Below are positions 27,771-44,851 of a stretch of 64,000 nucleotides of DNA, in pieces. The DNA is from Nitrososphaerota archaeon (GTDB lineage: Archaea; Thermoproteota; Nitrososphaeria; Nitrososphaerales; Gagatemarchaeaceae). The stretch's first letter is position 1. Each line of letters opens with the position of its first letter. A program made the translations under genes and the position numbers. The stretch spans positions 62,001 through 126,000 of the forward strand of contig JACQFN010000008.1 of NCBI GenBank assembly GCA_016200045.1. Direction: 5' to 3'. The notes beneath the pieces were generated by a model that saw only the letters and a program-made list of their open reading frames with translations, made no database searches and was not told the origin of the DNA.

Positions 27771-29501
27771 TCAGGTGAAGGTCTTGAGGACCGAGGCCAG
27801 CTCCTTGGAATAGCCTTCGATGTTGCCAGCCCCCAGGTCCCATGCGACCCCAGCTGCCCGGAAGAGCTCCGGGAGGGGCCGCGAACCCCCTAAGGAGAGA
27901 GCGCCCTTGTACGCCTCGATCGCTCCGGTGGGGTCTCCTCTGTAACGGAGCCATATGCCAAGGGCGCCGAGGTTCGCTATCCCGTACTCTATGTAGTAGA
28001 GTGGAAACTGGAAGAGATGGAGCTGCCTTTGCCACCTGAAGCGGAGGGACCTGTCGAACCCCTCGTAGCTCTCCATCCCCGAGAACCGCCTGAAGATCCT
28101 TGCCCATGCCTCTGACCTCTCCTCGTGGGTGTGCGAGGGGTGCGTGTAGACCCAGTGCTGGTACGCGTCGATGGTCGCGACCCACGTGAACAGTTTGATT
28201 GACTGGATAACTTCGGTCTTGTTTGAGCGCTTGGCCTCGTCGGGGCCATAGAAGACCCCTTCAAGGTGTTCGCCTCCCATCAGTTCCATCGAGGTCGACG
28301 CCACTTCGGCGAACTCGGTGGGCAGGTTCTGGCCCGAGTTGTAGAAGGGCAGGCCAGCCGCCCGCATCAGGAAACTGTGCGAGCTGTGCCCGGATTCGTG
28401 GAGAAGGGTCCTGACGTCGTTGTCCCTCTTTGCGGCGTTCATGAATATGAAGGGAAGCCGCACCTCGGAGAAATCGTCTTGGTATCCCCCCGGAGCCTTC
28501 CCCTTCCTGCTCTCCAGGTCGAGGAGCTCTAGCTCGACCATCCTGGAAAAGAAGCCGGAGAGCTGCGGGTCTACCCTTCCTATTACCTTCGAACACCCGG
28601 CGACAAGCTCCGAGACGTCGTTGAAGGGCGAGAGGGGAGGGCGGCCCTCGGGGTCGACGTGGATGTCCCAGGGCATGAGCCTGTCGACCCCCATCTTCTC
28701 CAGCCGTTCCTCGTCGATCTTCCCGCTCAGCGGGACGAAGTACTTCTCCACCGCGTCGTGGAACCTGGAGCAGTCCTCGGGGGTGTAGTCGAACCTGTTC
28801 CTCTGCCTGAACGCGTACCGAACGTAGTTGTCGAACCCTGCGTTCCTCGCCGCCTGGTCGCGGAGGCGGACCATCCCGTCGTAGATCAAGTCGAGCTTCT
28901 CGCTGTCGGCGAGGAGCCGGTCCTGTGTCATTCGCCAAGCCTGCTCTCGCACTCCCCTGTCGGTCTCCTCAAGGAACCTGGACATCTGCTGGATTGTCCG
29001 CTCCTCGCCGCGAAAAGTGACCGTCATCGCTCCGATGGTGCTCTGGTACTGCTCGGCCAGCTCGGCGTCCTTCCTCTCCAGCTCCACGTTCTCTTCTCTG
29101 AATATCGAGGCGGCCGTCTCCCTCACCCTGTCCGTCGTTCTGTAGGATTCACCCGGGAGTTCCCTTCGGGGGGATGCGCCCACGTATTTCTTCAGCAGGT
29201 CGAAGCTCGCGAGCTTGATCTTGGGCTCCATGTCCCGTATGTAGGAAAGGTATGCCTGTCGGTACTCCGCGTCGTCGGTCTGCCTCGTGTTATTGACGAA
29301 CGCCAGGGTCTTCCTCTCGTAAATGACTGCGTTCAACTCGTCTTCATCGGCCATCCATCCCTCCAGGTCGTCCCTCGTCCTGAGATCCCTCTCGTTCAGT
29401 GATTGGAATTGCCGCGAGAGCTCCTCCCAGGTGAAGGCCATTCCCGCCGGAACGAATTTCCGCGGAAACTCTCTAGGGAGCTTCGTGTAGTCGAAGACCA
29501 C
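27771..29501 (-). CDS. pepF: Oligoendopeptidase F-type M3 metallopeptidase
   Basis: A 576-residue zinc peptidase of family M3. The zinc site is His368-Glu369-x2-His372 in LLHESGHSSHSF, and the third ligand lies in the helix EFAEVASTSMELM about 25 residues on. The N-terminal helical domain and the conserved end (WQRQLHLFQFPLYYIEYGIA) match oligoendopeptidase F, which cleaves cytoplasmic peptides of 7-17 residues. No signal sequence. GTG start. The convergent Ftr1-like gene ends 14 bases away. Confidence 0.93.
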   Translation of the reverse strand: MVFDYTKLPREFPRKFVPAGMAFTWEELSRQFQSLNERDLRTRDDLEGWMADEDELNAVIYERKTLAFVNNTRQTDDAEYRQAYLSYIRDMEPKIKLASFDLLKKYVGASPRRELPGESYRTTDRVRETAASIFREENVELERKDAELAEQYQSTIGAMTVTFRGEERTIQQMSRFLEETDRGVREQAWRMTQDRLLADSEKLDLIYDGMVRLRDQAARNAGFDNYVRYAFRQRNRFDYTPEDCSRFHDAVEKYFVPLSGKIDEERLEKMGVDRLMPWDIHVDPEGRPPLSPFNDVSELVAGCSKVIGRVDPQLSGFFSRMVELELLDLESRKGKAPGGYQDDFSEVRLPFIFMNAAKRDNDVRTLLHESGHSSHSFLMRAAGLPFYNSGQNLPTEFAEVASTSMELMGGEHLEGVFYGPDEAKRSNKTEVIQSIKLFTWVATIDAYQHWVYTHPSHTHEERSEAWARIFRRFSGMESYEGFDRSLRFRWQRQLHLFQFPLYYIEYGIANLGALGIWLRYRGDPTGAIEAYKGALSLGGSRPLPELFRAAGVAWDLGAGNIEGYSKELASVLKTFT

Positions 29502-29676
29502 GTCAGTCCACGATGTCGTTCACGATCGTCGATTACTTATGCTTCTTCCCGACCCGACTCCTAGGAAGGCCGACCCTCCTCAATCGGACTTCAGAGGGAA
29601 CTGATCCCGTGGAATTGATGCCACGGCCGGGAATATTAATCCTCGGGTGCAAGTTCCCGGCGGTACCAATGCCCTA

Positions 29677-29743
29677 GGTGAAATTGTTTAGGGATTCGAC
29701 CCCGACCTGCATCGGAGTGTTAGGAGCCCGACGGAACCCGGAG
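29677..29743 (-). repeat. tRNA-3'-end-like composite repeat, copy B
   Basis: This is homologous to copy A (19836-19902), again with two tRNA-tail-like pieces on the minus strand, more decayed: the T loop reads GTCGAAT and the final acceptor part is lost. It begins 176 bases after the stop of the Hint-domain gene. The rest of the 417-base gap (29502-29918) shows no gene. Confidence 0.55.
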
Positions 29744-29918
29744 CATTTTTGTCGCTAAAATCGGTTACGGTTCAACGGGTTCGATACCAAATGGAATTGA
29801 ACGTGAACTGGCCTCTGTCATGAATCGGCAGCGTCCACTTTGAGCCCGGTCATTTCCCGGCACCATCCGATGGTGGGTCCAAGAAACCCAATTGACAAAC
29901 CCAGATCAAAGCCACTTC

Positions 29919-30509
29919 CTATTTCGGACAGGGACACAACAAGTTGGCGATGTAATTGTTCCCGTTTGTGGTTCGCAAATCGAAGACCACGAAGTCCCCC
30001 GTGAGGACCTGCAGGCTCGTTATCGTCACCCAGGATTTTGACGCAGGTTCGTACAGTTGCATCCCGACCTTGAGTTGGCCGATGTCAATGTTCCTTTGGG
30101 TGCCGTTTTGCATCCTAGCATAGATCAGTTGCTCACCCAAACCACTGATGCGAAGCGTGCCGTTATTGATGTCCAAGACTTTGTGGACCAGTAGAGCCTT
30201 GTTGCTGGCAACGGTGGTCGTGGACAATGATCCGGTCCTCGTGTTGTAAGAAAGCACATGGTCCCCCGCCTTCAGGTTCTGCACAGGCGCCTGAGTACCG
30301 TTGGCAAGGGTGATCAGGGTCCCGTTCAGGACACAACCGCCACCGCCACCGCCCCCACTGTTTGAATAGAAGTAGGCTGTGATTGTTCCAGGTCCCTTTA
30401 TCGTTGCCGTGGTCCCCGAGCTTTGTGGGTTTGCAAAGGTAATCAAACTGGTGCTAGAACCCCAAGAAGAGAACGTGTAACCACTGGCTTGCGTGGCTGA
30501 AATCCACAC
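29919..30509 (-). CDS. Surface protein, C-terminal part with Hint domain
   Basis: This frame continues the protein at 30443-32143. After a beta-rich repeat (GSNIWYGAGSAVWISATQASGYTF) and a run of seven glycines comes a Hint (hedgehog/intein) fold: it begins with the nucleophile Cys in GCVLNGTLITLANG, followed by VQNLKAGDHVLSYN, and ends FDLRTTNGNNYIAN. The block-B TxxH motif is not seen and there is no C-extein, since only six residues follow NYIAN. Autocleavage as in hedgehog proteins, giving a modified N-terminal part, is possible but not assured. The first residues in this frame shadow the upstream one; the true join is near 30560. Confidence 0.7.
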   Translation of the reverse strand: MWISATQASGYTFSSWGSSTSLITFANPQSSGTTATIKGPGTITAYFYSNSGGGGGGGCVLNGTLITLANGTQAPVQNLKAGDHVLSYNTRTGSLSTTTVASNKALLVHKVLDINNGTLRISGLGEQLIYARMQNGTQRNIDIGQLKVGMQLYEPASKSWVTITSLQVLTGDFVVFDLRTTNGNNYIANLLCPCPK

Positions 30510-32143
30510 TGCTGACCCGGCCCCATACCAGATGTTACTTCCAGAGGGCGAAGAGTTGACCCGCTGCCCGCTGGGCTAACAGCGTACGAGACCTGATAGC
30601 TCGAGGTCACCAGTTTGGCTCCCATCAGAGGAACATGGCCACTTAGTCCGTTGGAAAGCGAATAATAAGCCGTCCCCACTGATGCGTCGAAGTCAGTCTT
30701 TGTCCTCAGTGGGCTGTCGAATCCTACTGACGCTCGAGTATCCGAAACTGATGTGCTTGTTAATCCCCCGGCGAGAGACAGGGCCATCCAAGCCGGGATT
30801 GCTAAGCCACCTGAAGCCCAAGACAAGATTGCGCCGATGTCAATCCCAACATTGATCCATTGTGTGTTTGACTGTGCGTAGGTGCCCACTAAACTGTCAC
30901 TCTGGACATAATTCAGAGGCCCGGACAAGGGATTTCCCTGCCCCGTTACGGTTTCATACATGACAGACGGATAATACGATTGGACGTTACTTATCCACGG
31001 AGGCAGTCCGGTTTGGGACCCCCCCTGGACTGTGCCCCCGCTAGTGAGCACATTGACGACCCCGACGTCATATTGTTGGTTTCCTGTATCACTGTTTATT
31101 ACACAAAAGGCCTCACAAAAGTATTCTTCGAACTCCTCGCCTTCAACTTGGCCCAAGAAATAGATGTAGGTTGAACCAATGGTGCCTGGGGATATCCCGG
31201 ACGACCAGATTCCACCTGAAGTCACCGTGTTGGACCATGACGCACTCCCGGCCTGATAGGTAATTTGATTCTGTGAAGCGCTGCTGAGTTGAGCTCCAGT
31301 GACAAGTCCCACATTTAGCGAAGATGTGCTACTGGAAGTTATTGATTCGGCCAATGTTCCATAGGCGAGACTCCCTGATGGGACAGTAAGCCAGACAGTC
31401 CCCACCTTTCCGCACGTGGTGGTGCTGGTGCATGTGCTAGGGTATACGACATCCGTGGTTGTTATGGGTTTCCAGTAATAGCAAAAGAGGTAGGTCTGAG
31501 TGCATGGAAAGGCAGCACAGTCGCCTGTGCAAGGCGTAGGTAAACTGTTGCTGTTTGCGTGAGGACTCCAAGTGTTCGATTCTGACGCCGATGTCTCGCT
31601 AGTTGACCAACTTCCAATCGCTCCAGAAGAAGCTTCAATCGGTAAATTCAGATTCCTAGAAAGGTCAAGCCTACCAAATGCTCTTGCCAGCTTATTTGAA
31701 GTGCCATCGAGAGCCGTCAGGGGAACGGAAGTTTGGTTAAAGTGTTGTCCCGTCGAGTCGACGTAAGTTAGGAATATGAGAATGTTTGGATGACTGTAGG
31801 CATATTCGGCGCCTTTGACCTCCTTCCAAGAGTCAGCGAGGTGGCGCGCTACCGTCAGGTTCGAGAATGTTGCCTGACCACTCCTATTGGTTATTGCCGA
31901 AAACACTTGAGTGAACCCGTAACCCTCAGATTGAGGGGCCGGAACAAAGCCTTGGGCGGTGACATCGGCCAAGGGGGATTGATGCTGATCTGTCACTTGC
32001 AGACTGATACCTACGACGGAGCCTGGAGGTGGTTGGCCCTGATTGGACCAATTGGTGAAGACGGAATTCGGTACGCCCGTCTGGAACAAAAGAAGAAGAG
32101 CCGCAACAACGAAGAGTTTATTCGACCCGTCTGCCGAACTCAC
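30443..32143 (-). CDS. Surface protein, N-terminal part
   Basis: About 520 residues of secreted, Ser/Thr/Gly-rich sequence after an N-terminal hydrophobic segment (residues 8-22). It includes an Ig-like or carboxypeptidase-regulatory-like segment (GISLQVTDQHQSPLADVT), several cysteine pairs (PCTGDCAAFPCTQTYLFC) and a hydrophobic stretch (IGAILSWASGGLAIPAWMAL). The family is unknown. Sense is lost after YAVSPAGSG at about 30560, where adding one base to the run of three C restores the frame at 29919-30509, so the two form one gene of about 720 residues. Confidence 0.65.
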   Translation of the reverse strand: MSSADGSNKLFVVAALLLLFQTGVPNSVFTNWSNQGQPPPGSVVGISLQVTDQHQSPLADVTAQGFVPAPQSEGYGFTQVFSAITNRSGQATFSNLTVARHLADSWKEVKGAEYAYSHPNILIFLTYVDSTGQHFNQTSVPLTALDGTSNKLARAFGRLDLSRNLNLPIEASSGAIGSWSTSETSASESNTWSPHANSNSLPTPCTGDCAAFPCTQTYLFCYYWKPITTTDVVYPSTCTSTTTCGKVGTVWLTVPSGSLAYGTLAESITSSSTSSLNVGLVTGAQLSSASQNQITYQAGSASWSNTVTSGGIWSSGISPGTIGSTYIYFLGQVEGEEFEEYFCEAFCVINSDTGNQQYDVGVVNVLTSGGTVQGGSQTGLPPWISNVQSYYPSVMYETVTGQGNPLSGPLNYVQSDSLVGTYAQSNTQWINVGIDIGAILSWASGGLAIPAWMALSLAGGLTSTSVSDTRASVGFDSPLRTKTDFDASVGTAYYSLSNGLSGHVPLMGAKLVTSSYQVSYAVSPAGSGSTLRPLEVTSGMGPGQQCGFQPRKPVVTRSLLGVLAPV

Positions 32144-32178
32144 GACTTCACATGATAATTTCCTCTCATATTTAGTGC

Positions 32179-33513
32179 TTATCCAAGACTCTTTCCATTG
32201 ACACCGTAGAGGGTAGACCCATCAGAGAACACGAGGAACTCGCTGGCAACTCCCAGCGCATAATAGCCCGGTAATGACGGATCGGTCCATGGTGGTGACA
32301 CCCAAGGTCGGTACTGTCTGTACCATCCTGCGCGACCGTCCGTCGCATTCACGATCGCAAAGGCACCGCTGTACAGAGTACCACTCGAATAATACAGATG
32401 GCTGTTGTCCTCCTCCAGAAATACCCAGCCATCAGACAATGGGATCAAGGAGATTGCATTGATTGACGACTCGTTCTGAACTAAGAAGGACCAAAGGGGA
32501 CTTCCGTCTTTGGAATAGGCGACAACTCCAACATTGTTTGAGACCATTAGCTTGTCCTGGATTACACTGACCACGTCTGCCGAACCAAACGTCTGCACGA
32601 CGGCATGGGCACTGAAATTGGTCACAAGCTCTCGGTCTGTCAGCCTTACCCCGTATACTCTGGGGTAATTCATCGTTCTTTCGAGGTAGTAAAAGGTTCT
32701 GTTCATGAAGGGAGAGCTAAGTGAGAGAATTGAACAACAGCTTTCAGGCACCCCACTCCCCGGCAAGAAGCCTTCGTACCCAATAGTCCCGTTTGTCATT
32801 AGCTCGACCAAGTAGATCCTTGATTGGTCAGACACTGCCAAAGTGAGCCCTTGCGAATCCGCCTGCAATCCAGGTTCGAAGTTGGCCCAGCCATTCTTCC
32901 CCGGGACCAAGATGGACCTCTCCCAAGCACGTGATCCGTCAATCATTGAAACAGATTCTACGGATAGGACTGTGGAGTTTGCCGGTTGCCCGGAATAGGC
33001 GACCCCGCCCAGAAATAGTGTTCCTCGAAAGCTAGTCGCGAATATGCTGAAAGCAAACCCCCCCGGGATGGGTTCGGTGAAGGTCGAGACCACCCTCCCA
33101 ATCCGTGCATCAAGAGTGGTTGTCCGCAATTCAGAAAGGCTTCCGTTTTGAGTATAGCCTACGAAATGAATCATGCCATCATCATAAAACAGGTTCGTAT
33201 AGAGCGAACAGAGGCCAGACGTATGGATAGAATCCGATGACCACAGCAGAGAGCCGTTCGGTGCCCCTATGGCTACGATTTGATAGGTGCAGTTGCTTTG
33301 ACCAACCGAAACAGGAGTCAAGGACCTGAGGGAGTATACGACTCCGTGCCCCACTAAAGTCTTCAGCTGCACTTGGCCCTTCGGGAGTCGTACCTCCCAG
33401 GCAACTGGGAAGGGAGGAGCTCTCGAATTGATTAACGCGAAGTACGATTCAAGAGGAACTACGATTGTAACTCCCAAGACCAGAGCTAACACAAGAAGGG
33501 TCCGTTTCTTCAT
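32179..33513 (-). CDS. Secreted PQQ-like beta-propeller protein
   Basis: A 444-residue protein with an N-terminal signal or anchor (residues 5-27) and repeats of about 50-60 residues containing GSLLW, GSRAW and DGSPLWSF-type turns, as in PQQ-dehydrogenase-like propellers. No quinone or metal ligands typical of the enzymes stand out, so a structural or binding role at the cell surface is more likely. It ends 35 bases before the surface protein gene begins on the same strand (order on the minus strand: this gene, then the Hint protein). Confidence 0.7.
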   Translation of the reverse strand: MKKRTLLVLALVLGVTIVVPLESYFALINSRAPPFPVAWEVRLPKGQVQLKTLVGHGVVYSLRSLTPVSVGQSNCTYQIVAIGAPNGSLLWSSDSIHTSGLCSLYTNLFYDDGMIHFVGYTQNGSLSELRTTTLDARIGRVVSTFTEPIPGGFAFSIFATSFRGTLFLGGVAYSGQPANSTVLSVESVSMIDGSRAWERSILVPGKNGWANFEPGLQADSQGLTLAVSDQSRIYLVELMTNGTIGYEGFLPGSGVPESCCSILSLSSPFMNRTFYYLERTMNYPRVYGVRLTDRELVTNFSAHAVVQTFGSADVVSVIQDKLMVSNNVGVVAYSKDGSPLWSFLVQNESSINAISLIPLSDGWVFLEEDNSHLYYSSGTLYSGAFAIVNATDGRAGWYRQYRPWVSPPWTDPSLPGYYALGVASEFLVFSDGSTLYGVNGKSLG

Positions 33514-33996
33514 CCGTTCGAATTAATGCCCTCCTTCGTGAAGTGCAATCAAGAACGATTCAACTCTTAGGCGTTCTACTGTAGATTCTTCATTCAAAGT
33601 CCTTTCTTCCTCTTATCCAGTCGAGTCCTCAGGCGACCGTATGAAAGCTTTCTCTCTAAAGACTCAGCATCTGGGATCTTGTAATCCTTCGTGACTAATA
33701 TTCCGCCACGTATGCCGCATCCGTCATGTTCTCATTCATGACCAGAAGTCGGGTTAGAGTGAACATGCGTTCACCCTCATTCCTGAGTCCTCTGCCAGAG
33801 CGATGGCCGAGGATACCTCAAGCTGGTGGAACGAACGATAGCCGAGGCTTACACCCAAATCCTAAAAATCAAATCCTTTACTTTCTAGAAAGCCATGAAG
33901 GGAACCAGTGAGGTCCTTGCGTCCTGATCCCGGGCGAGATTTCGACGAGGTGGTGGAATGCCCCCCAATGCCATGTCCCAGGTTCGGAACCGGTGG

Positions 33997-34066
33997 GACC
34001 CGGTTGGAAGACCGTGTCAGAGGTGGATTTGAATCTAGGTGATCCCAGTTTGAAAACCGTGCTAGA
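33997..34066 (-). repeat. tRNA-like and direct-repeat region, copy C
   Basis: Two imperfect direct repeats of about 26 bases (33997-34022 and 34041-34066; shared core GAAxACCGTG) flank a segment that on the minus strand reads as a tRNA T arm with loop TTCAAAT (CCTAGATTCAAATCCACC). A second tRNA-tail-like piece, GGGTCCCACCGG, lies at 33985-34000. The block starts about 75 bases after the PIN gene stop. The rest of the 628-base gap 33514-34141 has no gene I can support. Confidence 0.5.
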
Positions 34067-34141
34067 TTTCGGTCCAAACCCCAAGAGGTTTGGGACACCG
34101 CGATGGGTAAAAGGTTCAAACCTTCATCACATCGAGCTTCT

Positions 34142-34519
34142 TCATACCACGTATTCCACGCCGCTCAGACCCCGGAAAGTCTTGTCTCCTGTCAGGAATC
34201 TAATCGCCAACTTTCGAGAGAGGAAGTATCCGAGGGCGTCAGCGTAGGAAATATTGCGACCTGCCCGCTTGAGTTCTAGTCTGGTCTTCATAGAACCGGC
34301 TATGTCCTCCAGCCCGAAGTCGATGAGGTACTTGGAGAACGTGTCCAAGATGTCGGACGCTGCCTTGGAGTCGAACTGCTCCAGAGACCGATAGAATACT
34401 TCTAGCAGGTTGAGTTTCGTCAGGACGCCGTCGTTCTTCTCGAAATACTCTTTGTAGGCTTGGTTACCGCTTGTGAACGCTAGAACCGCGTAGCTGTCGT
34501 AGAAGAAGCGAGCTGGCAT
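34142..34519 (-). CDS. PIN-domain toxin (VapC-like)
   Basis: A 125-residue PIN-fold ribonuclease with the four acidic positions of the family: Asp8 (FYDSYA), Glu40 (NLLEVFY), Asp94 (SYADALGY) and Asp112 (LTGDKTF). These bind Mg2+ and cut RNA, in VapC proteins usually tRNA. It starts directly after the AbrB-type gene (no gap), the standard antitoxin-toxin order. The pair is in accessory DNA next to repeats, so it may stabilise an integrated region. Confidence 0.9.
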   Translation of the reverse strand: MPARFFYDSYAVLAFTSGNQAYKEYFEKNDGVLTKLNLLEVFYRSLEQFDSKAASDILDTFSKYLIDFGLEDIAGSMKTRLELKRAGRNISYADALGYFLSRKLAIRFLTGDKTFRGLSGVEYVV

Positions 34520-34726
34520 TCAGCGCCAGTCCTTCCTCATGGCGTCTTTCTGAGATTGCAGGTCCTTGAACGGGTATCTTCCGAAGAGGCGTTCTATCTC
34601 CACGGCCTTCCTTACCGATATCTCGACGATCTCGCCCTCCCTCAGCCCTTCTTTCTCGACGATTTCTTTAGGGACGACTACGCCATAGGAGTTTCCCCAC
34701 TTCTTCAGCTTGGATTTGGCCTGCAT
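34520..34726 (-). CDS. AbrB-type antitoxin
   Basis: A 68-residue protein. Residues 1-45 form an AbrB/MazE swapped-hairpin DNA-binding domain (KLKKWGNSYGVVVPKEIVEK and EGEIVEISVRK), and the C-terminal arm (LFGRYPFKDLQSQKDAMRKD) would wrap the PIN toxin. It is expected to repress its own promoter; a perfect palindrome lies one base ahead of its ATG. Confidence 0.88.
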   Translation of the reverse strand: MQAKSKLKKWGNSYGVVVPKEIVEKEGLREGEIVEISVRKAVEIERLFGRYPFKDLQSQKDAMRKDWR

Positions 34727-34727
34727 G

Positions 34728-34743
34728 GTTATACATGTATAAC
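34728..34743 (-). promoter_or_regulatory. 16-base perfect palindrome, likely antitoxin operator
   Basis: GTTATACATGTATAAC is a perfect inverted repeat ending one base before the antitoxin ATG. An AT-rich box, ATTTATTA on the minus strand at about 34753-34760, lies some 27-34 bases from the start codon, so the palindrome covers the predicted transcription start. Binding of the AbrB dimer there would block initiation. The operator role is inferred from position. Confidence 0.65.
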
Positions 34744-34977
34744 TTCCTGCTAATAAATCTTCTAGTGAAGCTCACAATCTTGCGGTCGCCGGGACGACCG
34801 AACTACATGTAGGTCGGAAATTCTGCCCAATCAAGGTTCTTTTTCGTTCGGAGCCGCAGTCTCTAAAACCCTGCATGTAGTGTGGGAGGTAGGACCAAGA
34901 GTATCAAGAAGAGCAAAAAGGAACCTTTCTCCGCTTAAATAACGGCCGGTTAACGCGACCGGCTCGACGCCTCTAAC

Positions 34978-35460
34978 ATGCAAGGCTCCTCCTCTGAGGT
35001 CGCTCCAAACTCTCCCGTGGCTAAAACAAAGAAACCAAGGGCCCGATTGATCGCCATGGGCTTGGGCATTGTTGAAGGAGGGTACTTCGGTTTCTATCAC
35101 GGATACAACGAAGCGGTACAGGGAAGCGTTGCAACACCAGCTCCTCTTGTCCCATTCTGTGCAGTCCAGCCCCCGGGAAACTGTTCTCCTGCAATCTCAC
35201 TGATGCCCACATTCTTCCTTGCTGGTAGTATTACGATTCTAATTACCATCGCATTCTTGGCTTGGTTGGTGTTGTTTTTCTGGAGGGCTCCCACAACCTC
35301 TCTGAGGGCTCCGTTGGTCCTCTTTCTCTTTTCGGTGGTCTTACTGCTTTCCGGAGGGGGTGGCCTTGGGCCCGTTCTGGGATGGATTGGCTCAGCAGTT
35401 GCGACCCGTGGAGCTATACTTGCAAGACGAGCGGAGCCTTCTGTCCAATCAAGCTCGTAA
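34978..35460 (+). CDS. Membrane protein of unknown function
   Basis: A 160-residue protein with a basic N terminus and membrane segments at about residues 25-42 (weak), 77-98 and 108-135. The external loop contains two cysteines (PFCAVQPPGNCSP). No family recognised. A TATA-like TTAAATAAC at 34936-34944 lies about 35 bases upstream, which supports transcription. Confidence 0.55.
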   Translation: MQGSSSEVAPNSPVAKTKKPRARLIAMGLGIVEGGYFGFYHGYNEAVQGSVATPAPLVPFCAVQPPGNCSPAISLMPTFFLAGSITILITIAFLAWLVLFFWRAPTTSLRAPLVLFLFSVVLLLSGGGGLGPVLGWIGSAVATRGAILARRAEPSVQSSS

Positions 35461-35690
35461 GGTCGCGTGCGCGAACCAAACAGCGGCGCCATGCCCTTTC
35501 TTGGGAATCCGTTATTAGGCCCCTTTCAGAAGTGGGTCGAAGTCTCCTGATTTTGACGACGTTTCTCATGTAGATTCCTATGCGGACCCTGGGACTTCCA
35601 CCCGAGTTTCTCCCAAGAAAGCTGCCAAAATGGAAATGGCTAGATTTGCGGCTCTATTGATGAGCAGAGGTCAAATTGGGGTATTACTAG

Positions 35691-35737
35691 GCGGGCCCGG
35701 TGGGGTCCGCCCCTAAGCAGGTCCGGAAAGTGGATCC
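35691..35737 (-). repeat. 47-base tRNA-tail-like repeat, copy D
   Basis: This is the same as copy E (36584-36630) at 42 of 47 positions by hand alignment. On the minus strand it ends CCCACCGGGCCCGC, exactly the acceptor end also present at 44828-44841 beside the integrase. The other half carries GGTCCGGAAAGTGGAT on the plus strand, shared with copy H. It starts 93 bases after the stop of the small secreted protein gene at 35830. The remaining bases of 35461-35829 hold no gene. Confidence 0.75.
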
Positions 35738-35829
35738 TAAAACAAGCTTGAGTCAACCTTGTCCTTGATTCACTCCTCTTTGGCATCCTAGGATATCGTC
35801 TCTTAATCCGAAATGGGGTTCCTTCGCGG

Positions 35830-36210
35830 TTATTCTGTGCCGAGAGTGATGTTCGCGCATGGCGAACCGCACTGGTTGACCACGTGGAATACGGTGTCGA
35901 TTGCAGGCTCTGTGGTGACCCATTTGGTGTGGTTTGTTAGGATGAGCACTACTGTGAGGTTATGAGACTGAAAGAGACAAGTGACATGGCCTCCGAGTAC
36001 TGCTGTGACTGCTACATTCCACTGAACTTGTTTGCCTGAGGCTGAAGAGAAGCAAGATCCGTCTCCGGTCCCACTACTCGTGCTTTTGGATTGCCCAGAT
36101 GCGCCCAACCATGACCCAAGGAATACAAAGCCCATTGCACCGACTACGACCACGATGGTCACCAGCAGAGCAACGGCCGTTCTTCCTATTGCTCTGCGCC
36201 TCGTTAACAT
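35830..36210 (-). CDS. Small secreted or membrane-anchored protein
   Basis: A 126-residue protein with an N-terminal membrane anchor (residues 12-34) and an extracellular beta-rich part with four cysteines, likely two disulfides. No family recognised. It is one of several single-gene units coding secreted proteins that are followed by a tRNA-tail-like repeat. Confidence 0.55.
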   Translation of the reverse strand: MLTRRRAIGRTAVALLVTIVVVVGAMGFVFLGSWLGASGQSKSTSSGTGDGSCFSSASGKQVQWNVAVTAVLGGHVTCLFQSHNLTVVLILTNHTKWVTTEPAIDTVFHVVNQCGSPCANITLGTE

Positions 36211-36583
36211 GTAGTACCTGTGTTTGGAATGGCTTCTTGCGATTAGTACTTTGTCCGAACGGGATATGCTGTCCTCTGCATGTCAGTACCTTGTAACGTG
36301 AGAATGTCTGGTTCTAACGTTCAGAAGGTTTGTTCTATGCGCTACAATTTGACACTTCTCGAAGAGGGTGATGAGGTTGTCCGCCTTCAAGGCTCGGTCC
36401 TGTCGTTGTGCCTTGGGGATATGTGACTGACATGCAAATTCTGCGTGTTTTCCCGGTTTGGAATGGTCCAACTCCAGGGCTTTGAAAAGTTGATTTCATG
36501 GTAGGAAGGACGTGGATCAATGACAATAGGTGTTCTATCTTGATAGCTCATTGCCTGTAGGCGTGCCTGTCTTTTGAGAGCAA
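36211..36583. other. Non-coding interval
   Basis: I see no supportable gene here. Short frames on both strands lack promoters and protein-like composition. It separates the small secreted protein gene from repeat copy E. Confidence 0.4.
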
Positions 36584-36630
36584 GCGGGCCCGGTGGGGTC
36601 CGCCCCCAAACAGGTCCGAATAGTGGATTC
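36584..36630 (-). repeat. 47-base tRNA-tail-like repeat, copy E
   Basis: This is the partner of copy D with 5 differences in 47. Two direct copies of GGTCCG lie 17 bases apart within it. It starts 67 bases after the stop of the kelch-protein gene fragment at 36697. Confidence 0.75.
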
Positions 36631-36696
36631 TCGGCATTCTAAATGCTAGGTATCAGAACCAGCTGCCAAGCCGCTGGCAACGCCCAAAGACAGAGA

Positions 36697-36966
36697 TTAG
36701 GAATTGACTTTACCCGAGGGCTCTCCCTTCGAGAGTGGCATCGGCGCCTGCCTCGTCCATCGCTTGAGGAGTAAGGCAATCACGACCGCCACGACTACCA
36801 GGGCAGGAATCAAGATCCAAAGGAGTGGAGGCGAAGTGGTTGTCGTGGAGGAGGAAGATGCGGTCGATGTCTCGGAGGTGGTTGCAGTCGTAGAGGCAGC
36901 CGCTTGGTATCTGAAAGACGTAAGCTCGGCCGTGCCCACGAACCCTGTATCGACCGTTGTCCTCAC
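36697..36966 (-). CDS. C-terminal anchor part of the kelch-like surface protein
   Basis: Eighty-nine residues: a beta-strand-rich start (RTTVDTGFVGTAELTSFRYQ), a Ser/Thr-rich stalk of about 25 residues, one membrane helix (LLWILIPALVVVAVVIALLL) and a basic tail, the standard end of an archaeal surface protein. It starts over the stop of the kelch frame (ATGA). One base change near 36970-36985 would fuse AAEVA directly to PVRVRTTVDTGF, so this is probably the lost C terminus of that protein and not a separate gene. Coupled re-initiation is the alternative. Confidence 0.65.
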   Translation of the reverse strand: MRTTVDTGFVGTAELTSFRYQAAASTTATTSETSTASSSSTTTTSPPLLWILIPALVVVAVVIALLLKRWTRQAPMPLSKGEPSGKVNS

Positions 36967-38732
36967 ACGTACAGGAGCGCCACCTCTGCAGCCCAGAAGC
37001 TTTGTGTTTGGCTCGAACTACCCATAGGATATTCCAAGTAAGTCTGGGCGAGAAGACCTCCATCGTAAGAATAGAAGCTGGTCAAGAAGGAGCCACTTCC
37101 AGTCTCTGCAACGCCATTGTAAGTCAAGACTCCATTGAATGTGAGAGTTTTCAGAACGGGAAGCGTCGTGAAGTTGCCGGCGGCAACGGTAATGGATTCT
37201 GGGCTTTCAACCATGAATCGCACGCAGGCTGGCTGTGTGTAGTTCTCGGCCGAATTGTATCGCACCGCAACGACAGTCGCCGATTCCCATGAATCTCCGG
37301 CCGTTAGCGGCCATCGCATTTGTTGGGGTGGACTGTAAGTTTCCGCGGCAATAAGTTGAAACCCGGAAAAGTTGAAACCAAGCGTGGACTTTACAACAGA
37401 GAGGTCCGATTTCTGCTGCCATCCGTCACCCAACAAGGTGACTGTAGTGCCCTCGATTGTCAGGTTGTACAATAGTTTCAGCCTGTATGTCTCGTAGCTG
37501 TTCCCGTTTACCGCAATCGTGTCGGTTCCCACGACCTCGATTCTGCTTGTACCGGAACCGTCATGTGAGGGTCCGCCAGTCGTGTCAGGCAGGGTGACGC
37601 TAAACGAGTATTCCCAGAAGTCTCCCACGGTCCATTGAGGCACATTTGAGGCCGCTTGCGTTGATGCCTCTTTGCACGCCGCGGTAGCCGATGTTGTGGT
37701 TTCTGATGAGAACGGCACTATCTGGGCATAGTAGACAACATCTGTGCTGCCGTTATCAGCACTTCCTCCGACACAATAGATGTAACCAGATAATAATACA
37801 CATGACTGGTAGCGTATGTTAGTAAGATAACCGGTAGTGCTGGTCCATGATGATACCCCCGATGACGAAAGGGAGGCGTAGTAGACAGCATTCGTAAGAG
37901 TGTAAGCATTTTCACTATTGTATCCTCCTACGCAGTAGATGTATCCACCTGATGCTACGCACGACTGAGCGTCAATGGTAATAGGGTAGGCGGTAGTGCT
38001 GGTCCACGTTGACACTCCAGATGATGAAAGCTGAGCATAGTAGACGGAATCCAAGTAACCTGTACCAGAATATCCTCCTACGCAGTAGATGTATCCACCT
38101 GATGCTACGCACGACTGGCCGACTTCAGTACTTGGATAGTCAGTAGTGCTAGTCCATGATCCTACTCCAGAGGATGAAATAGGGGCGTAATAGACTGAAT
38201 TTGTGTAGTTCTTACCATTGTAGCCCCCGACGCAGTAGATGTATCCAGATGATATTACACAAGACTGACCGGATACAGTACTTGGATAGCTGGTCGTGGT
38301 GGTCCATGATGACACTCCAGAGGATGAAAGGGAGCCATAATAGCTAGTGTTTATTGTTGATGAACTGCCTTGCCCTGTAACAAATTCTCCTCCGACGCAG
38401 TAGATGTATCCACTTGACGCCGCACATGACAGGCTGGATAGGGCAGTAGGATAGCCGGTAGTGCTGGTCCATGATGGCACTCCAGAGGATGAAAGTGAAG
38501 AGTAGTAGACAGCGTTTGTGGCGTTGGCTTCAGTAGCTCCTCCGACACAGTAGATGTATCCAGATGATACCACGCATGACTGAGCGTATATGTTGGTTGG
38601 ATACTTAGCCGCGGACCCCCACGAGCCAACAGACTCGGCACTGACTGGCTGAAGAGGTACGAATGAAGTAAATACAAGAGTTATCGTAGCCAGAATGAGT
38701 GTAGTCGCAATCCTACTTGCAACAGTCTTCAA
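36963..38732 (-). CDS. Kelch-like repeat surface protein
   Basis: A 589-residue protein: signal peptide (to about residue 32), then six tandem repeats of about 50-58 residues, each with QSCV-SSGYIYCVGG and VYYA-LSSSGV-SWTSTT-YP. The YCVGG turn and six-blade count suggest a kelch-type propeller with one disulfide per blade. After residue 350 comes a separate domain (VPQWTVGDFWEYSFSVTLPD onward). The DNA repeats are very alike, with identical runs of more than 40 bases between 37922-37964 and 38075-38117, pointing to recent repeat expansion or exchange. Confidence 0.8.
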   Translation of the reverse strand: MKTVASRIATTLILATITLVFTSFVPLQPVSAESVGSWGSAAKYPTNIYAQSCVVSSGYIYCVGGATEANATNAVYYSSLSSSGVPSWTSTTGYPTALSSLSCAASSGYIYCVGGEFVTGQGSSSTINTSYYGSLSSSGVSSWTTTTSYPSTVSGQSCVISSGYIYCVGGYNGKNYTNSVYYAPISSSGVGSWTSTTDYPSTEVGQSCVASGGYIYCVGGYSGTGYLDSVYYAQLSSSGVSTWTSTTAYPITIDAQSCVASGGYIYCVGGYNSENAYTLTNAVYYASLSSSGVSSWTSTTGYLTNIRYQSCVLLSGYIYCVGGSADNGSTDVVYYAQIVPFSSETTTSATAACKEASTQAASNVPQWTVGDFWEYSFSVTLPDTTGGPSHDGSGTSRIEVVGTDTIAVNGNSYETYRLKLLYNLTIEGTTVTLLGDGWQQKSDLSVVKSTLGFNFSGFQLIAAETYSPPQQMRWPLTAGDSWESATVVAVRYNSAENYTQPACVRFMVESPESITVAAGNFTTLPVLKTLTFNGVLTYNGVAETGSGSFLTSFYSYDGGLLAQTYLEYPMGSSSQTQSFWAAEVALLYV

Positions 38733-38835
38733 GTTCCTTCTTCGAAGGTCGCCTTGATTATATATCCTTGGTAGACCGTGGCATTCTTAGGATAAGAGCA
38801 GACGCTCATGCCTCCTACATGAGGTATCGGATTCC

Positions 38836-38881
38836 GCGGCCTGGAGGGGTCCGCCCCCAAGTGGATTCAATTAGTGGATTC
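38836..38881 (-). repeat. tRNA-tail-like repeat, copy F
   Basis: A diverged member of the D/E family: GGGGTCCGCCCCCAA and TTAGTGGATTC are kept, while the GGGCCCGG core has changed. It lies upstream of the kelch gene and of the gene at 39154, so unlike the others it does not follow a minus-strand stop. The rest of the gap 38733-39144 contains only a TATA-like CTTTTAAGC at 39121-39129 for the next gene. Confidence 0.6.
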
Positions 38882-39153
38882 TGGATAGTCAACGCGAATG
38901 GAAATTCCGGCGACCGCATACTTTGAACACGATATGTTAGGTTGGAACCTAACCACCCCTAAAGCCGTCTTGTGAGCTGAAGACTCGGTGTTTGGTTGGG
39001 TCTCCAAAATAGCCCAATACGATTACGTTCCGTTTGATGCTTCACCCATTAGACTTACACCGTACTCGAGAACGGAATCTGGAATGACAAGGACGGCCGA
39101 AGGGGAGGGTCCTGCCAAGTCCTTTTAAGCTGCGGTAAATCCACATGTTTCAA

Positions 39154-39789
39154 ATGAGTTTGTTTGGCAAGAAGATAGTTGGCCTGGAGCCGCTATGCAG
39201 TTATTATCAGAGCCTCGGCATCGATGCCGCCATACTCCCAGAAGATAGCCCCGAAAATATTGTGGAGCACGGGGTTTTCAAGCATGACAACGGCTACATT
39301 AAGGTAAAAGGCCGGAACTTTGACCTCGTCACGATGCGGATGAGCATAAGGGGTATTGGGGGGAGTGGTGTGAGCATGGGAGGGGTTCCCCTCGCCTCCA
39401 AAACCAAGATACCATTCGAATATCACCACATCGTAAGAAGGGACCCATCAGCAAACGAGGGGTCGTTCAAGGCGAAGCTTGAGAAGAAGACCAAGGGGCT
39501 AATCAGCAAGGAGATAGTGGATGTAGCTTGGGAAGGGGGTCATCTGGCAACTACGCTTGACGCCAATGCGGAGATGAAGAAGACTATCATGAACTTCGTT
39601 ACTCGAGAGGACGGCTTGAAGGTTGAACCCGATAGGGACAATAGATGTGTGAGGGTCATATTCACTAGGCCCTCGAAGATTGAAGCTGGCTTGCTGGAAG
39701 GGTTCAGGTTCGACAGATCCCTGCTGCCGGAGGGGGCAGTCGAGGTGATCGACAACATAGCAGAGACTTTGCGCCAGATTCCGGCATAG
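39154..39789 (+). CDS. Unknown cytoplasmic protein
   Basis: About 211 residues, soluble, with alternating strand and helix. Central glycine-rich MSIRGIGGSGVSMGGVPLAS is followed by KIPFEYHHIV. No family recognised. The TATA-like box at 39121-39129 predicts a transcript starting near 39150, which favours the ATG at 39154 over the one at 39145. It lies at the left edge of the integrated element and could be part of it. Confidence 0.55.
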   Translation: MSLFGKKIVGLEPLCSYYQSLGIDAAILPEDSPENIVEHGVFKHDNGYIKVKGRNFDLVTMRMSIRGIGGSGVSMGGVPLASKTKIPFEYHHIVRRDPSANEGSFKAKLEKKTKGLISKEIVDVAWEGGHLATTLDANAEMKKTIMNFVTREDGLKVEPDRDNRCVRVIFTRPSKIEAGLLEGFRFDRSLLPEGAVEVIDNIAETLRQIPA

Positions 39790-40023
39790 GGAGATTTGTT
39801 TGTCCTTAGAGCTTCCGACTTACGCCTAGCATTTTGGGTCAAACTCCCACCCCCCCCGCACATTAGTTTCACCCAACCCTTGCCAACTCGTTCAATGAAT
39901 GAAATTGATATGGTGAAAGCGCAGTCTTTCGGCGAAGAGGGGAAAAGAGGTTCGGGTGACTAACCAAGGCTGAAGTCCCGACGACCGCACAATTTCTTTT
40001 TCCGAAAGTCCTTACCAAGTGAC

Positions 40024-41787
40024 CTACTGATGGTCGCTACTGAGGTGCCTAGTCCAGACCTCTGGGAAACGGTGCCAGGAGTCGTGAATCATGCAATGCA
40101 GCCACCGCCTTCCGTTCGCCTCCTTCGCTTCATCGACTAGCTCGGAGTGCATGGGCTCGGGAAGCCGACCTTCCACCTTCAGGAGAAGGTCCCCAGTGGT
40201 ATTTCGTGGAACATGTGGAACATCTGGAACAGAATCGGCTAACCGGGCAACCTGTCTGATTTGTTCCACTTGTTCCATTTGTTCCACATTCTGCGTCTGG
40301 ACAGCATCCTTCTCTCTAACCCGTAAGACTTCACGCAGCTTCTTCGGGTCGTAACTTGGAACGAAATCATAGAGCCGTCCGTCCAGTCTGTCGAATGAAA
40401 CCCAGATTGGTCTGTAAGCCCTGGGGCCGATGCGGATCCTCGCAGGACAAAGTTCGGACGTCAGCTGGAGACTGTGAATGTTCCTTCTGAGCTCCTTGGC
40501 CTTCCAGTTCAGATCCTGCTCCATGTCCGATGTCTGCAGGGGAACGACGTACTCGTCCTTCTCGCCTTTGAAACGCTCCTTCCCGATGTAGTATTTCCCG
40601 TTGTGGCTGTCGATCAGGCCCTCGTCTATCTTGTTCCAGAGGTAGCCGAGAATCACGCCATCGGGCGACAGGGCCTTGACCTCTCGCCGTCTGCTCTCCA
40701 GGGAGGTTATGATTTCGTTGAAGTTGGACCAGTACGCTGGCTCGAGCTTCGAGATTGCCTGCAAGGGAAGGATTGCAGCTGTGAGCCTGTGGTCCCTGAC
40801 TTCTCGAATCCTGAATCTCCTGTCAATTGATACCTTGTCCCAGTGCATCAGCCGGAGGTAGAGGAGCATGCACTGCAGCTCGATTCCTCGTTCAATCCAC
40901 TCGGGGAGTTCCTCAGTCGGGATAGGGTTCTGCGACTTCTCGCAGTAGTGGGGAAGGCTCCGGTCCTCGGTGGCGTTGTCCTCCCAGGGCCTCCTCTGCG
41001 AGACGATGGTAAGGCCGAAATTCCCGAAGACGTCGTTAAACCTCGGGGTATCGGTGCTCTGCCTCGAGTAAGGGACCCCATAGGACCGGCAGTTGAGATA
41101 CTTCATAACTTCCGCTGTCTCGCCTGATCCATGGAAGTCTGCTTCCGACATGCAGAGCGTCCCCTTCCATTGGTCCAGGGGACGATAGAGCGAAGGGGCC
41201 CTCGTCGTCGCAACGTCGTAAAAGGGGCGGTACGAATTGAGCCGCAATCCGTTCATCAGTCTATCTTTTCCTCCGCCGCTCATGCCCCTGCACGGAATGA
41301 TCGGGGCGAACTGCCCCATGCCCGGAATCTTCAGCCTCGGGTCAGGGAAGTACCTGTCAAGGAACCAGGACGATTGGGTTATTCCCACCAGGAACTTGAT
41401 CTCAGCGACTTCGCCGGGCGAAGCATCGTAAATGTCCAAGGCGAGCCTGCAACCCTCTGCATAGGCTTCCCCGAATGTCGCCTTCTTGTAACCATCGGGA
41501 AGAAGGACCAGCCGTTCGGTGAGGGTCCTGTTGACGAGTGGCTTGTAGACCTTCTCGGTGATCTCTCCGCTGAAATCGTCCCGCAATTCGATCCTGATTT
41601 CCTCTTGACGCGTGATCTCCTCGGAGTCGAGTCGCCTCGCCAGATACCAGGCTCGATTGAAGACGGGGGAGTAGACCTGCTCGGCAATTAGCTGCGGGGT
41701 TATTACGACTGGCGTGTATTCTACATGTTCTTCGGTTTCCTTTTCCTCCTCAACTTCTTCAGCCTCCAATTCTTCACGCCCAGTCAT
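40024..41787 (-). CDS. P-loop ATPase of the integrated element
   Basis: A 587-residue protein. It has a Walker A-like GMSGGGKDRL (residues about 170-180) and a Walker B-like GTLCMSEADFH some 40 residues on, then an arginine-rich stretch that could hold an arginine finger (VSQRRPWEDNATEDRSLPHY). The build resembles DnaB/RecA-like or DUF-type helicase-primase ATPases of archaeal plasmids. The C-terminal third has a short coiled coil (QTQNVEQMEQVEQIRQVARL). A role in replication of the element is an inference. It is last in a chain of four overlapping genes (42222 down to 40024). Confidence 0.65.
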   Translation of the reverse strand: MTGREELEAEEVEEEKETEEHVEYTPVVITPQLIAEQVYSPVFNRAWYLARRLDSEEITRQEEIRIELRDDFSGEITEKVYKPLVNRTLTERLVLLPDGYKKATFGEAYAEGCRLALDIYDASPGEVAEIKFLVGITQSSWFLDRYFPDPRLKIPGMGQFAPIIPCRGMSGGGKDRLMNGLRLNSYRPFYDVATTRAPSLYRPLDQWKGTLCMSEADFHGSGETAEVMKYLNCRSYGVPYSRQSTDTPRFNDVFGNFGLTIVSQRRPWEDNATEDRSLPHYCEKSQNPIPTEELPEWIERGIELQCMLLYLRLMHWDKVSIDRRFRIREVRDHRLTAAILPLQAISKLEPAYWSNFNEIITSLESRRREVKALSPDGVILGYLWNKIDEGLIDSHNGKYYIGKERFKGEKDEYVVPLQTSDMEQDLNWKAKELRRNIHSLQLTSELCPARIRIGPRAYRPIWVSFDRLDGRLYDFVPSYDPKKLREVLRVREKDAVQTQNVEQMEQVEQIRQVARLADSVPDVPHVPRNTTGDLLLKVEGRLPEPMHSELVDEAKEANGRRWLHCMIHDSWHRFPEVWTRHLSSDHQ

Positions 41788-41954
41788 CAGTCATCACCCC
41801 GAGGGTTCGAGACTTCTGATAATCCCAGCTCGGCATCGAGGTACGCCAGGGCGATCTTCCTGACTTTCGACAGTTCCTCGGGCGACAGTGGGACGGCGAG
41901 GGAGGCCATCAGTACACGAAGACAGAGGTCAATCTTCTCCAGCATGTCGGTCAT
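41787..41954 (-). CDS. Small helical protein of the element operon
   Basis: A 55-residue protein starting ATG 41954 (MTDMLEKIDLCLRVLMASLA). It is two predicted helices, acidic. The stop and the ATPase start overlap by one base (TGATG), and its ATG overlaps the stop of the 30-residue gene before it (ATGA). Function unknown; the coupling suggests a small partner of the ATPase. Confidence 0.6.
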   Translation of the reverse strand: MTDMLEKIDLCLRVLMASLAVPLSPEELSKVRKIALAYLDAELGLSEVSNPRGDD

Positions 41955-42043
41955 TCGGGGACCTCCTCCGCCTCTGGTTCGACCTGGACTTTTCGCAGGA
42001 TCTCTTCGACCTTCTCGATCAGGGAAAGGATGCGGTCGCTCAA
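41951..42043 (-). CDS. 30-residue coiled-coil peptide
   Basis: TTG start overlapping the AbrB stop (TTGA) and stop overlapping the next ATG (ATGA). It encodes LSDRILSLIEKVEEILRKVQ then VEPEAEEVPE: one amphipathic leucine-rich helix. Two exact overlaps and the heptad pattern argue that it is translated, although its size makes this uncertain. Confidence 0.5.
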   Translation of the reverse strand: MSDRILSLIEKVEEILRKVQVEPEAEEVPE

Positions 42044-42222
42044 GCAGACGCACCACGGCTCTTGTCGATGGGCTCGATCAGAACGTCATGCTCGCTTGTG
42101 CTGATTTTCACGTAGTCACCCGACTCCAATCCCGCCTCGACGAGAACCTCTTGGGGAATCACAACTACAGTCGATTTGTAGTCTCTTCCTCCCACCTTGT
42201 ACAGCCGTCTTATGTAGAACAT
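42040..42222 (-). CDS. AbrB-family regulator of the element
   Basis: Sixty residues with the AbrB swapped-hairpin pattern (GRDYKSTVVVIPQEVLVEAG, then ESGDYVKIS). The frame is open to an ATG at 42246, but the palindromic TATA box at 42248-42259 would put transcription start near 42225, so I take the ATG at 42222. It is first in a four-gene chain and probably regulates it. Confidence 0.8.
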   Translation of the reverse strand: MFYIRRLYKVGGRDYKSTVVVIPQEVLVEAGLESGDYVKISTSEHDVLIEPIDKSRGASA

Positions 42223-42247
42223 TTCAATCCGAACCATATTGACCAAT

Positions 42248-42259
42248 GCTATATATAGC
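42248..42259. promoter_or_regulatory. Palindromic divergent promoter
   Basis: GCTATATATAGC is a perfect 12-base palindrome and a TATA box in both directions. It lies 26 bases before the AbrB start on the minus strand and 37 bases before the winged-helix start on the plus strand. A second partial copy, AACTATAGC, follows at 42266-42274. One site may thus set expression of both regulators. Confidence 0.6.
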
Positions 42260-42295
42260 AGCTAGAACTATAGCCAGACCTGAGAATTAGGGTAT

Positions 42296-42883
42296 ATGGT
42301 AAAACGGAGCTCACGCGAGGTACGGAAGGACTCTGTAGAGGCGAATGTCCTCAGATATCTTGCCAACAACGGAAAGGCCTCTCAGTATTCCATCAGCCGG
42401 GCTTTGGGGAAATTCTACCCATCGGTTCACCTTGCTATTACGGGTCTGGCTTCCAAAGGCATGGTGGCGGTAATTGAAAAGACGAAGAGTCGGACGAACA
42501 CCATCAAGAACCTCTACGCCATAACAGACCGGGGCTACTGGATGTCCTGTTCTCTTATCGGCCCAGGCGCAGACCCTGACAGGATCCTAGAATCCAACCC
42601 TCATCTTCCGAAAGAGTGCAAGGCAATCGCTGAGGCTTGGAAGGTGGCTCCAGAACTCTATGCGAGATGGTTAGGACTGGCTGCAAGTCAGATTACTTCC
42701 ACAGATCCTCGGAAGGTGATGAGGGAAGCGATTACCATACTGATTCCGATGATAGCAGGAATGCCAGAAGGTCAGCAGGATGAAGCCCGTAGAATCATAC
42801 TGTCAGCTCCAGAGTCGAAGGCTCTGCTTCGAGCTACGATTGAAGAGGCCAAGAGTCTTCTCGCCGACTTTGACAAACCGTAA
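42296..42883 (+). CDS. Winged-helix regulator of the element
   Basis: A 195-residue protein with an N-terminal winged helix (residues 15-75; VLRYLANNGKASQYSISRAL and HLAITGLASKGMVAVIEKTK) of the MarR/PadR-like class, then an all-helical C-terminal domain of about 115 residues without a recognised ligand. Transcribed away from the AbrB operon. Likely controls element genes. Confidence 0.75.
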   Translation: MVKRSSREVRKDSVEANVLRYLANNGKASQYSISRALGKFYPSVHLAITGLASKGMVAVIEKTKSRTNTIKNLYAITDRGYWMSCSLIGPGADPDRILESNPHLPKECKAIAEAWKVAPELYARWLGLAASQITSTDPRKVMREAITILIPMIAGMPEGQQDEARRIILSAPESKALLRATIEEAKSLLADFDKP

Positions 42884-43082
42884 CCTGTTACACCCTTCGT
42901 TCTATTTACTTCTTATCCGTACTCCGCCTGCCTGACTTGCTGTCTGACCTGTTCGTCTTGTCTCTCGTTTCATTACCCCATACCCGCAGGACTTCCAACC
43001 ATCTCCACCAATGGCCCCTCCGCCGCTGTCACACTGTCACCTTCGCCCCGCCAATAGAGAAGGGAGTGACAATTCGAGTGTG

Positions 43083-43625
43083 TCAGTCGTAGTCTATCTG
43101 TTGACCTTCGCTGTCGAAGTGTGGGTTGGTGATCCTCTCCCAGCCTAGTTCCTTGTTCTCCTCTAGCCACACTGGAGTGTCCAGGTCCCAGATCACGAGC
43201 TCCGTATCTCCGCTGTCGTCGTTGAGTCTCTGTGAGGTCGCGTACGCCTGGAAGGTCTTTGGGTTGAGCAGTACGTGCTCCGCCACCCCGTTCCTCTGGT
43301 TGATGACGGTCAGTATCAGCATATATGCACCATTCGTCAGCGCGTAGTTGATCTCGGCAATCACCTCCCTCCGGTATATCGTTCTTCCAGACGCATAGGA
43401 GTGTTTCCCCTCAGGGCCGTATCTTTGGCTCGAGGGCACGAGAAAGAAGGTCTTCACGGAGACGACGGCTGGAGGTACTACCTCTGCAATGGGAAGCACG
43501 ATGTCCGGCTGGTTGTGGCCCCAACCGACTTGGACCTCGTATCCTTCCGCCGCCCACGCTTCAGCGACCCTGTTCTGCCATATGTTGCCGGCGGCCAGCG
43601 CGTCGTACCCCGAAGGCTTACCCAA
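43083..43625 (-). CDS. Nuclease-like protein of the element
   Basis: A 180-residue protein with features of the PD-(D/E)xK fold: a helix with Glu (NRVAEAWAAEGYEVQVG), then QPDIVLP, a strand ending VVSVKTFF. The Asp of PDIV and the Lys of SVK are in place, but the acidic residue before Lys is Ser, so activity is uncertain. It could be a resolvase-like or restriction-type enzyme. Its ATG lies 8 bases inside the end of the integrase gene, so the two are co-translated. Confidence 0.5.
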   Translation of the reverse strand: MGKPSGYDALAAGNIWQNRVAEAWAAEGYEVQVGWGHNQPDIVLPIAEVVPPAVVSVKTFFLVPSSQRYGPEGKHSYASGRTIYRREVIAEINYALTNGAYMLILTVINQRNGVAEHVLLNPKTFQAYATSQRLNDDSGDTELVIWDLDTPVWLEENKELGWERITNPHFDSEGQQIDYD

Positions 43626-44784: not shown

Positions 44785-44827
44785 GTCTGTTCTATTTATG
44801 GAATCCTATTTAAGAACCTGAATAGGT

Positions 44828-44851
44828 GCGGGCCCGGTGGGATTCGAACCT
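44828..44851 (-). repeat. tRNA 3'-end fragment, probable attachment site (copy G)
   Basis: On the minus strand this reads GGTTCGAATCCCACCGGGCC followed by CGC: a T loop TTCGAAT plus acceptor strand. No matching 5' acceptor, D arm or anticodon arm lies upstream, so only the 3' end of a tRNA is present. The last 14 bases are identical to those of repeats D and E. Together with the adjacent integrase it is best read as an att site or scar. Confidence 0.65.

Follow-up and report, generated by a model that had tools for sequence, protein, structure and literature searches.

Arm-and-tail repeats behind archaeal tRNA genes and the small gene cassettes that they bound

Why a 47-base repeat ending like the 3′ end of a transfer RNA (tRNA) should recur behind separate genes is the question raised by a stretch of 64,000 nucleotides from a Nitrososphaerota archaeon (assembly GCA_016200045.1, contig JACQFN010000008.1, positions 62,001 to 126,000 of the forward strand), here called the window. 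Four copies, D, E, F and H, lie in it. The original prediction offered two readings, recombination sites derived from a tRNA tail that mark integron-like gene cassettes, or tRNA-like structures in 3′ untranslated regions (3′-UTRs). Comparison across genomes supports the former, because empty sites, insertions exactly at tRNA ends, a cassette present in one species and absent from another, a swapped cassette order, tails that follow variant tRNAs and integrases at the same tails were all found. D, E, F and H are very probably attR-type (right attachment) sites of tyrosine integrases that target tRNA-Arg and tRNAs with the same tail, and such sites would be common to cassettes of about 1 kb that lack an integrase and are probably mobilised in trans.

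Structure and placement of the repeat

35691-35737, minus strand: site D, type 1, with arm GGATCCACTTTCCGGACC... and tail CCCACCGGGCCCGC; closes the E-D cassette; profile score 51.0 bits
36584-36630, minus strand: site E, type 1; closes the F-E cassette; 58.7 bits
38836-38881, minus strand: site F, diverged type 1; probable attR of an integrase-bearing element; 41.1 bits
63105-63148, minus strand: site H, diverged type 1, about 2.8 kb behind a tRNA-Gln; 40.1 bits

D and E agree at 42 of 47 positions, and the next-best matches to D in the window are F (at 38835) and H (at 63102), each with 32 of 47. The best match to D in 20 shuffled windows reached 25-30 of 47, which confirms F and H as diverged members. 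A profile built from D, E, F, H and a fifth copy beyond the window, L2 (contig C12:132816-132866), recovers these same five copies (E 1e-14 to 1e-19), and no other comparable match was found in 164 kb of contig sequence. L2 follows an antitoxin/PIN pair and is 0.9 kb from the tRNA-Arg(CCG) gene that precedes it on the same strand. The site combines a separate arm on its left, GAATCCACTTTC.GAACC..., with the 3′ end of tRNA-Arg on its right, and both parts are kept in an alignment of 14 copies (seven genomes, two from other families). Rfam and ARAGORN found only a tRNA-Glu in the window. The site folds no better than shuffles under RNA parameters, and the covariation term of 0.02 in the site alignment indicates essentially no pair covariation.

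D, E and H had been placed after the stops of minus-strand genes, and so they are, about 93, 67 and 110 bases from the stop of the upstream open reading frame (ORF). This placement does not extend to F, which has no preceding minus-strand gene and lies about 260 bases ahead of a plus-strand ORF that starts at 39145. Nor does the proposed link to secreted proteins hold in relatives, whose cassettes encode mainly PIN toxins, KaiC-type ATPases, adenylate cyclases, methyltransferases and SnoaL-like proteins; the association in the window is local chance.

Insertion behind tRNA genes in related genomes

A site match below E 1e-6 was present in 19 of 400 genomes of the order (handles beginning with G), 15 of the 19, by hand count, belonging to the family of the window. 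The named records with a site are metagenome-assembled genomes of Thaumarchaeota from soil and groundwater, and in related Thaumarchaeota the sites occur in arrays. Random orientation, which the original prediction had named as telling against it, was not what was found: behind tRNA-Arg (29 non-redundant stretches, 306 kb, duplicate contigs removed by hand) 19 sites run in the direction of the tRNA and 0 in the opposite direction, and five dinucleotide shuffles of these stretches yielded 0 sites. Some stretches of 5-12 kb recur at 99.9-100% identity across bins counted as separate species (G008/G009/G174, G008/G090/G162 and G006/G014), as shared or misbinned contigs.

Three types of arm precede the tail, namely type 1 as above, type 2, which is an inverted repeat TTCGAACCCAT..ATGGGTTCGAA, and type 3, GATTCGCTTA..TAAGCGCAT. 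Many type-2 cassettes open just behind the tail with a shared motif, GTTATGAAATAGCTCAGAATGAACTCTGTT (e.g. L110, L111, L112 and L116), perhaps a second arm.

Most genomes of the genus hold both tRNA-Arg(CCG) and tRNA-Arg(TCG). At the TCG locus the alignment of the genomes holds as far as the final bases of the tRNA, and the downstream anchor follows at +28 to 30 in the empty loci of G023, G109, G090 and G162, and at +239, +607, +1254, +1553 and +1918 in the filled loci of G014, G013, G008, G024 and G016. At the CCG locus of G023 a cassette A, encoding a coiled-coil protein, abuts a cassette B with a PIN gene, while G008 has a further cassette of 955 bp, with a PIN gene (PIN_3), exactly between A and B and with a site at each end. 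Where A meets B in G023, the junction is a hybrid of both sites flanking this 955-bp cassette, and in G017 the order is B-A. Gain, loss and reordering of cassettes, as expected if gene and repeat move together as blocks, were seen between species, not within strains. Further, the first cassette in G023 is similar to the last one in G109, and a cassette with a KaiC-type ATPase recurs: two copies follow tRNA-Arg(TCG) of G010, a third lies on a different contig of that genome and a fourth in G183.

The letters of the tail usually follow the local tRNA, tending to read CCCTCC in G003 and G002 and CCCATC in G012 and G145 in place of the usual CCCACC, which the tail search would also have accepted at these variant loci. 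Such copying is expected because the far tail would be the old tRNA tail after integration into the tRNA end.

Units bounded by sites or tRNA ends, 41 with boundaries curated by hand, have a median size of 996 bp, and 38 of the 41 are up to 2.5 kb. A typical unit holds one or two genes. At least 12 units encode PIN proteins, and the other cargo includes KaiC ATPase, adenylate cyclase with TPR, methyltransferase, MOSC, SnoaL-like and Kelch proteins. No integrase was found in the small cassettes, which can therefore only be non-autonomous relatives of tRNA-targeting elements. The exact site was absent from the viral contigs searched, and the cassettes had no match among the plasmids searched. 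Two adenylate cyclase-TPR proteins of 655 amino acids are encoded in the window (54784-56751 and 59494-61461), and in G183, G003 and G020 relatives from this protein family come immediately after a site. Outside the window, a 773-amino-acid ATP-grasp gene behind a tRNA-Arg array (L007:7480-9801) is longer than the 423-amino-acid version of G017 by an in-frame, intein-like insert of about 1 kb.

Integrases at the same tails, and what may have built the arrays

43618-44784, minus strand: int388, a tyrosine integrase of 388 amino acids; PHROG integrase at E 2e-7, Pfam Phage_integrase at E 9e-4, below cut-off
44828-44854, minus strand: tRNA tail resembling a left attachment site (attL), 58 bp before int388; contains CCCACCGGGCCCGC at 44828-44841, as originally predicted

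Many of the nearest relatives of int388 in the order have a tRNA 3′ end 58-117 bp before their start, for example that of tRNA-Arg(GCG), Arg(UCU), Arg(CCU) or Lys. The relative in G003 (62%) lies 59 bp behind tRNA-Arg(GCG), and 14.5 kb on its element ends at a type-1 site in which 16 bp of the tail, including the T variant, are repeated exactly, which makes the type-1 arm the right end of this element. A second family of integrases, int446, with 446 amino acids, is found behind tRNA-Arg in several genomes, members lying behind tRNA-Arg(UCU) on C17, a contig of the window's own genome, and behind tRNA-Arg(TCG) in G114. The int446 elements in G114 and G057 end in the type-3 arm, and the same arm is present on units without a detected integrase; in G114 the tail copy, with 1 mismatch, is found at 3.4 kb. 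Direct repeats of the tRNA 3′ end are accordingly present at both element ends in G003 and G114. The tyrosine recombinase residues R158, R289, H316 and Y324 are conserved in 17 sequences of int446, and int388 is assigned by its PHROG match together with the weak Pfam match.

Integrase remnants were located behind tRNA-Arg(CCG) in G006, G013, G014, G016 and G130. No relative of int388 was found in viral contigs, no match in the phage records searched and no usable relative among solved structures; its structure predicted from the single sequence had a mean pLDDT (predicted local distance difference test) of 40. A universal Xer-like recombinase was considered as the common enzyme and rejected, as G016, which is 100% complete, has no Phage_integrase match despite its array; a divergent relative of both integrases is present there. 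On C17 (L032 473-4049) the integrase is followed, near the contig end, by an adenine-specific DNA methyltransferase-like protein, a distant match to a methyltransferase of a defence system. In G193 (L321), of another family, three tandem copies of CCTTCGGGCCCGTTTTAACTGTCAG, the last one base shorter, lie at 12917, 14285 and 16640 behind an int388-type element at tRNA-Arg(GCG), possibly the same kind of array.

The arrays could be built as follows. A circular element carrying arm and tail would recombine within the shared tail CCC(A/T)CCGGGCCCG, with the joint expected inside CCCACCGGGCCCG. The tRNA gene would be left whole, the new DNA starting directly behind it, and arm and tail would move to the far end, so that repeated insertion would give the order tRNA, cassette, site, cassette, site. 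Larger elements would carry their integrase right behind the tail. Since the integrase-less units of about 1 kb share arms with the integrase elements, they were probably moved in trans.

The window has two islands, and the first comprises the following features.

44961-45035, minus strand: tRNA-Glu(CTC), upstream border of the island
29369-44960, minus strand: island of about 15 kb, from tRNA-Glu to a conserved anchor region, by synteny; start approximate
38836-44841, minus strand: putative integrase-bearing element, tail to F, with int388, ORFs of 180 and 587 amino acids and plus-strand ORFs
36584-38835, minus strand: cassette F-E, with a Kelch-repeat surface protein at 36963-38732 (Kelch E 1.6e-43)
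35691-36583, minus strand: cassette E-D, with a 126-amino-acid protein at 35830-36210 that has an N-terminal hydrophobic segment and no family match

In the relatives G017 and G024 the anchor is 0.8-1.0 kb from tRNA-Glu, against about 15 kb in the window. The order behind tRNA-Glu, i.e. tail, int388, F, Kelch cassette, E, 126-amino-acid cassette and D, would be an array of the kind outlined. The 192 bp behind E match a segment of C17 that starts at a tRNA tail (85% over 196 columns), and the boundary of the match is at the tail. About 6 kb behind D hold no recognised site. Genes at 30443-33513 have no relative in the genus, and the island end was therefore placed by tRNA-Glu synteny instead. 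A tRNA-Gln precedes the second island, which contains H, and synteny with G017 is lost at the end of this tRNA. The Kelch protein seems to be split (36697-38732) by a frameshift or assembly error, as the 589-amino-acid frame ends at 36963 and a membrane anchor lies in another frame at 36697-36966. Behind D the island also holds a small PIN-like ORF (125 amino acids) with an AbrB-like stretch upstream (34142-34740).

Several observations weigh against mobile cassettes served by integrases. Neither recombination nor a circular form was observed in the genome comparisons, which draw mostly on metagenome bins with identical contigs in several of them. Tail matching is imperfect, holding for 1 of 3 sites in G021 and pairing an A in the tRNA with a T in the far tail in G114, and at the end of several filled loci the site is decayed or missing. 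Some arrays have no recognised tRNA nearby (G183:C2 and G003:C1), and that of the window starts from a tail fragment behind tRNA-Glu rather than from a complete tRNA-Arg. The integrases are tied to arm types 1 and 3 and none to type 2; the link of type 1 to int388 rests on two elements, and the ends of the one in the window are inferred.

The main rival, which we regard as unlikely, is accretion and decay, in which integrase elements stacked up at one tRNA and then shed most of their DNA, leaving the sites as scars and the small genes as non-moving leftovers. Both tandem integration and the loss of integrases have been described in archaea (PMC8371274, PMC6563490), and the five genomes with integrase remnants as well as the several decayed sites agree with such a history. 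The 955-bp unit with its one PIN gene is nevertheless cleanly present or absent between A and B, A-B alternates with B-A, and the 38 units within 2.5 kb keep an intact content of one or two genes. The remnants, moreover, lie in tRNA-proximal positions, and none was seen inside small site-ended units.

Cassette order and presence might instead have changed by ordinary homologous recombination between the sites, which as repeats of about 47 bp could serve it, and module exchange by this route has been proposed for archaeal elements (PMC8371274). It leaves both the first insertion at empty tRNA ends and the sharing of arms with integrase elements unexplained, and we consider it improbable. Far less credible is a non-autonomous transposon or insertion sequence end, resembling a miniature inverted-repeat transposable element, that prefers tRNA tails as target. 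The arm conserved at one end and the start shared by some cassettes (e.g. TATGAAATAGCTCAGAATG) would suit it, whereas the insertions begin precisely at the tRNA 3′ end and carry a tail copy of 13-16 bp from the local tRNA, and tyrosine integrases, not transposases, stand at the same tails. The 3′-UTR reading, in which tRNase Z or RNase P would cut a tRNA-like element to form mRNA ends, is strongly disfavoured and the least likely of all, for it accounts for the distance of D, E and H from a same-strand stop and for the tRNA-like tail, while the sites keep the direction of the tRNA as cassette genes run both ways (e.g. the PIN and methyltransferase genes of G106) and hence are not mRNA 3′ ends, F lacks a same-strand gene before it, tail letters track the nearby tRNA, and folding and covariation are as given above.

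Relation to known systems

With integrases as the preferred agents, the nearest archaeal systems are the integrated elements of Thaumarchaeota, likewise equipped with tyrosine integrases, targeted to tRNA 3′ ends and bounded by short att repeats with a median of 17 bp (PMC6563490). The cryptic elements of that survey span 2.6-98 kb and carry an integrase, whereas the units here are mostly of about 1 kb, lack an integrase and form arrays with conserved arms. Integrative satellites and mobilizable elements are also helper-dependent units without an integrase, and differ from the one- or two-gene units in ordered arrays described here. Tycheposons of Prochlorococcus are tRNA-anchored tyrosine recombinase elements with cargo and a partial tRNA at the far end; they are bacterial and larger, and we know of no conserved-arm cassette arrays among them. 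A literature search, with most subscription journals outside it, returned no description of small cassettes that share arms and form arrays anchored at a tRNA.

Some archaea possess integrons with IntI and attC (Ghaly 2022, PMC9668308), and the survey of integrated elements in Thaumarchaeota lists them among the classes it did not detect (Krupovic 2019, PMC6563490). The arrays share with integrons the small cassettes, one recombination site per cassette in a one-direction array, a single anchor, frequent toxin-antitoxin genes and a shuffled order. In contrast, the integrase of the window is not IntI by the curated model, as int388 scores 15.8 bits against a cut-off of 265 in the NCBIfam integron integrase and int446 has no match, these two being the proteins scanned. 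The site is an arm plus a tRNA tail and not an attC folded as a single strand, judged with RNA parameters only; the anchor is a tRNA gene and not attI, and the same tail serves more than one family of integrases.

One may speculate, tentatively and with the balance leaning somewhat against it, that this is an independent archaeal equivalent of the integron, in which the tRNA is the insertion point, arm and tRNA tail make the site, and the integrases of resident or passing elements, several families sharing the tail, capture and shuffle cassettes of one gene. If true, archaea would possess a platform for gene capture and shuffling made from ordinary tRNA-targeting integrases, a route from satellite elements to an integron-like system would be revealed, and part of the turnover of small genes behind tRNA genes would be accounted for. 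The three site types are clear markers for such cassettes in soil and groundwater archaea. The system works like an integron, but it is not an integron.
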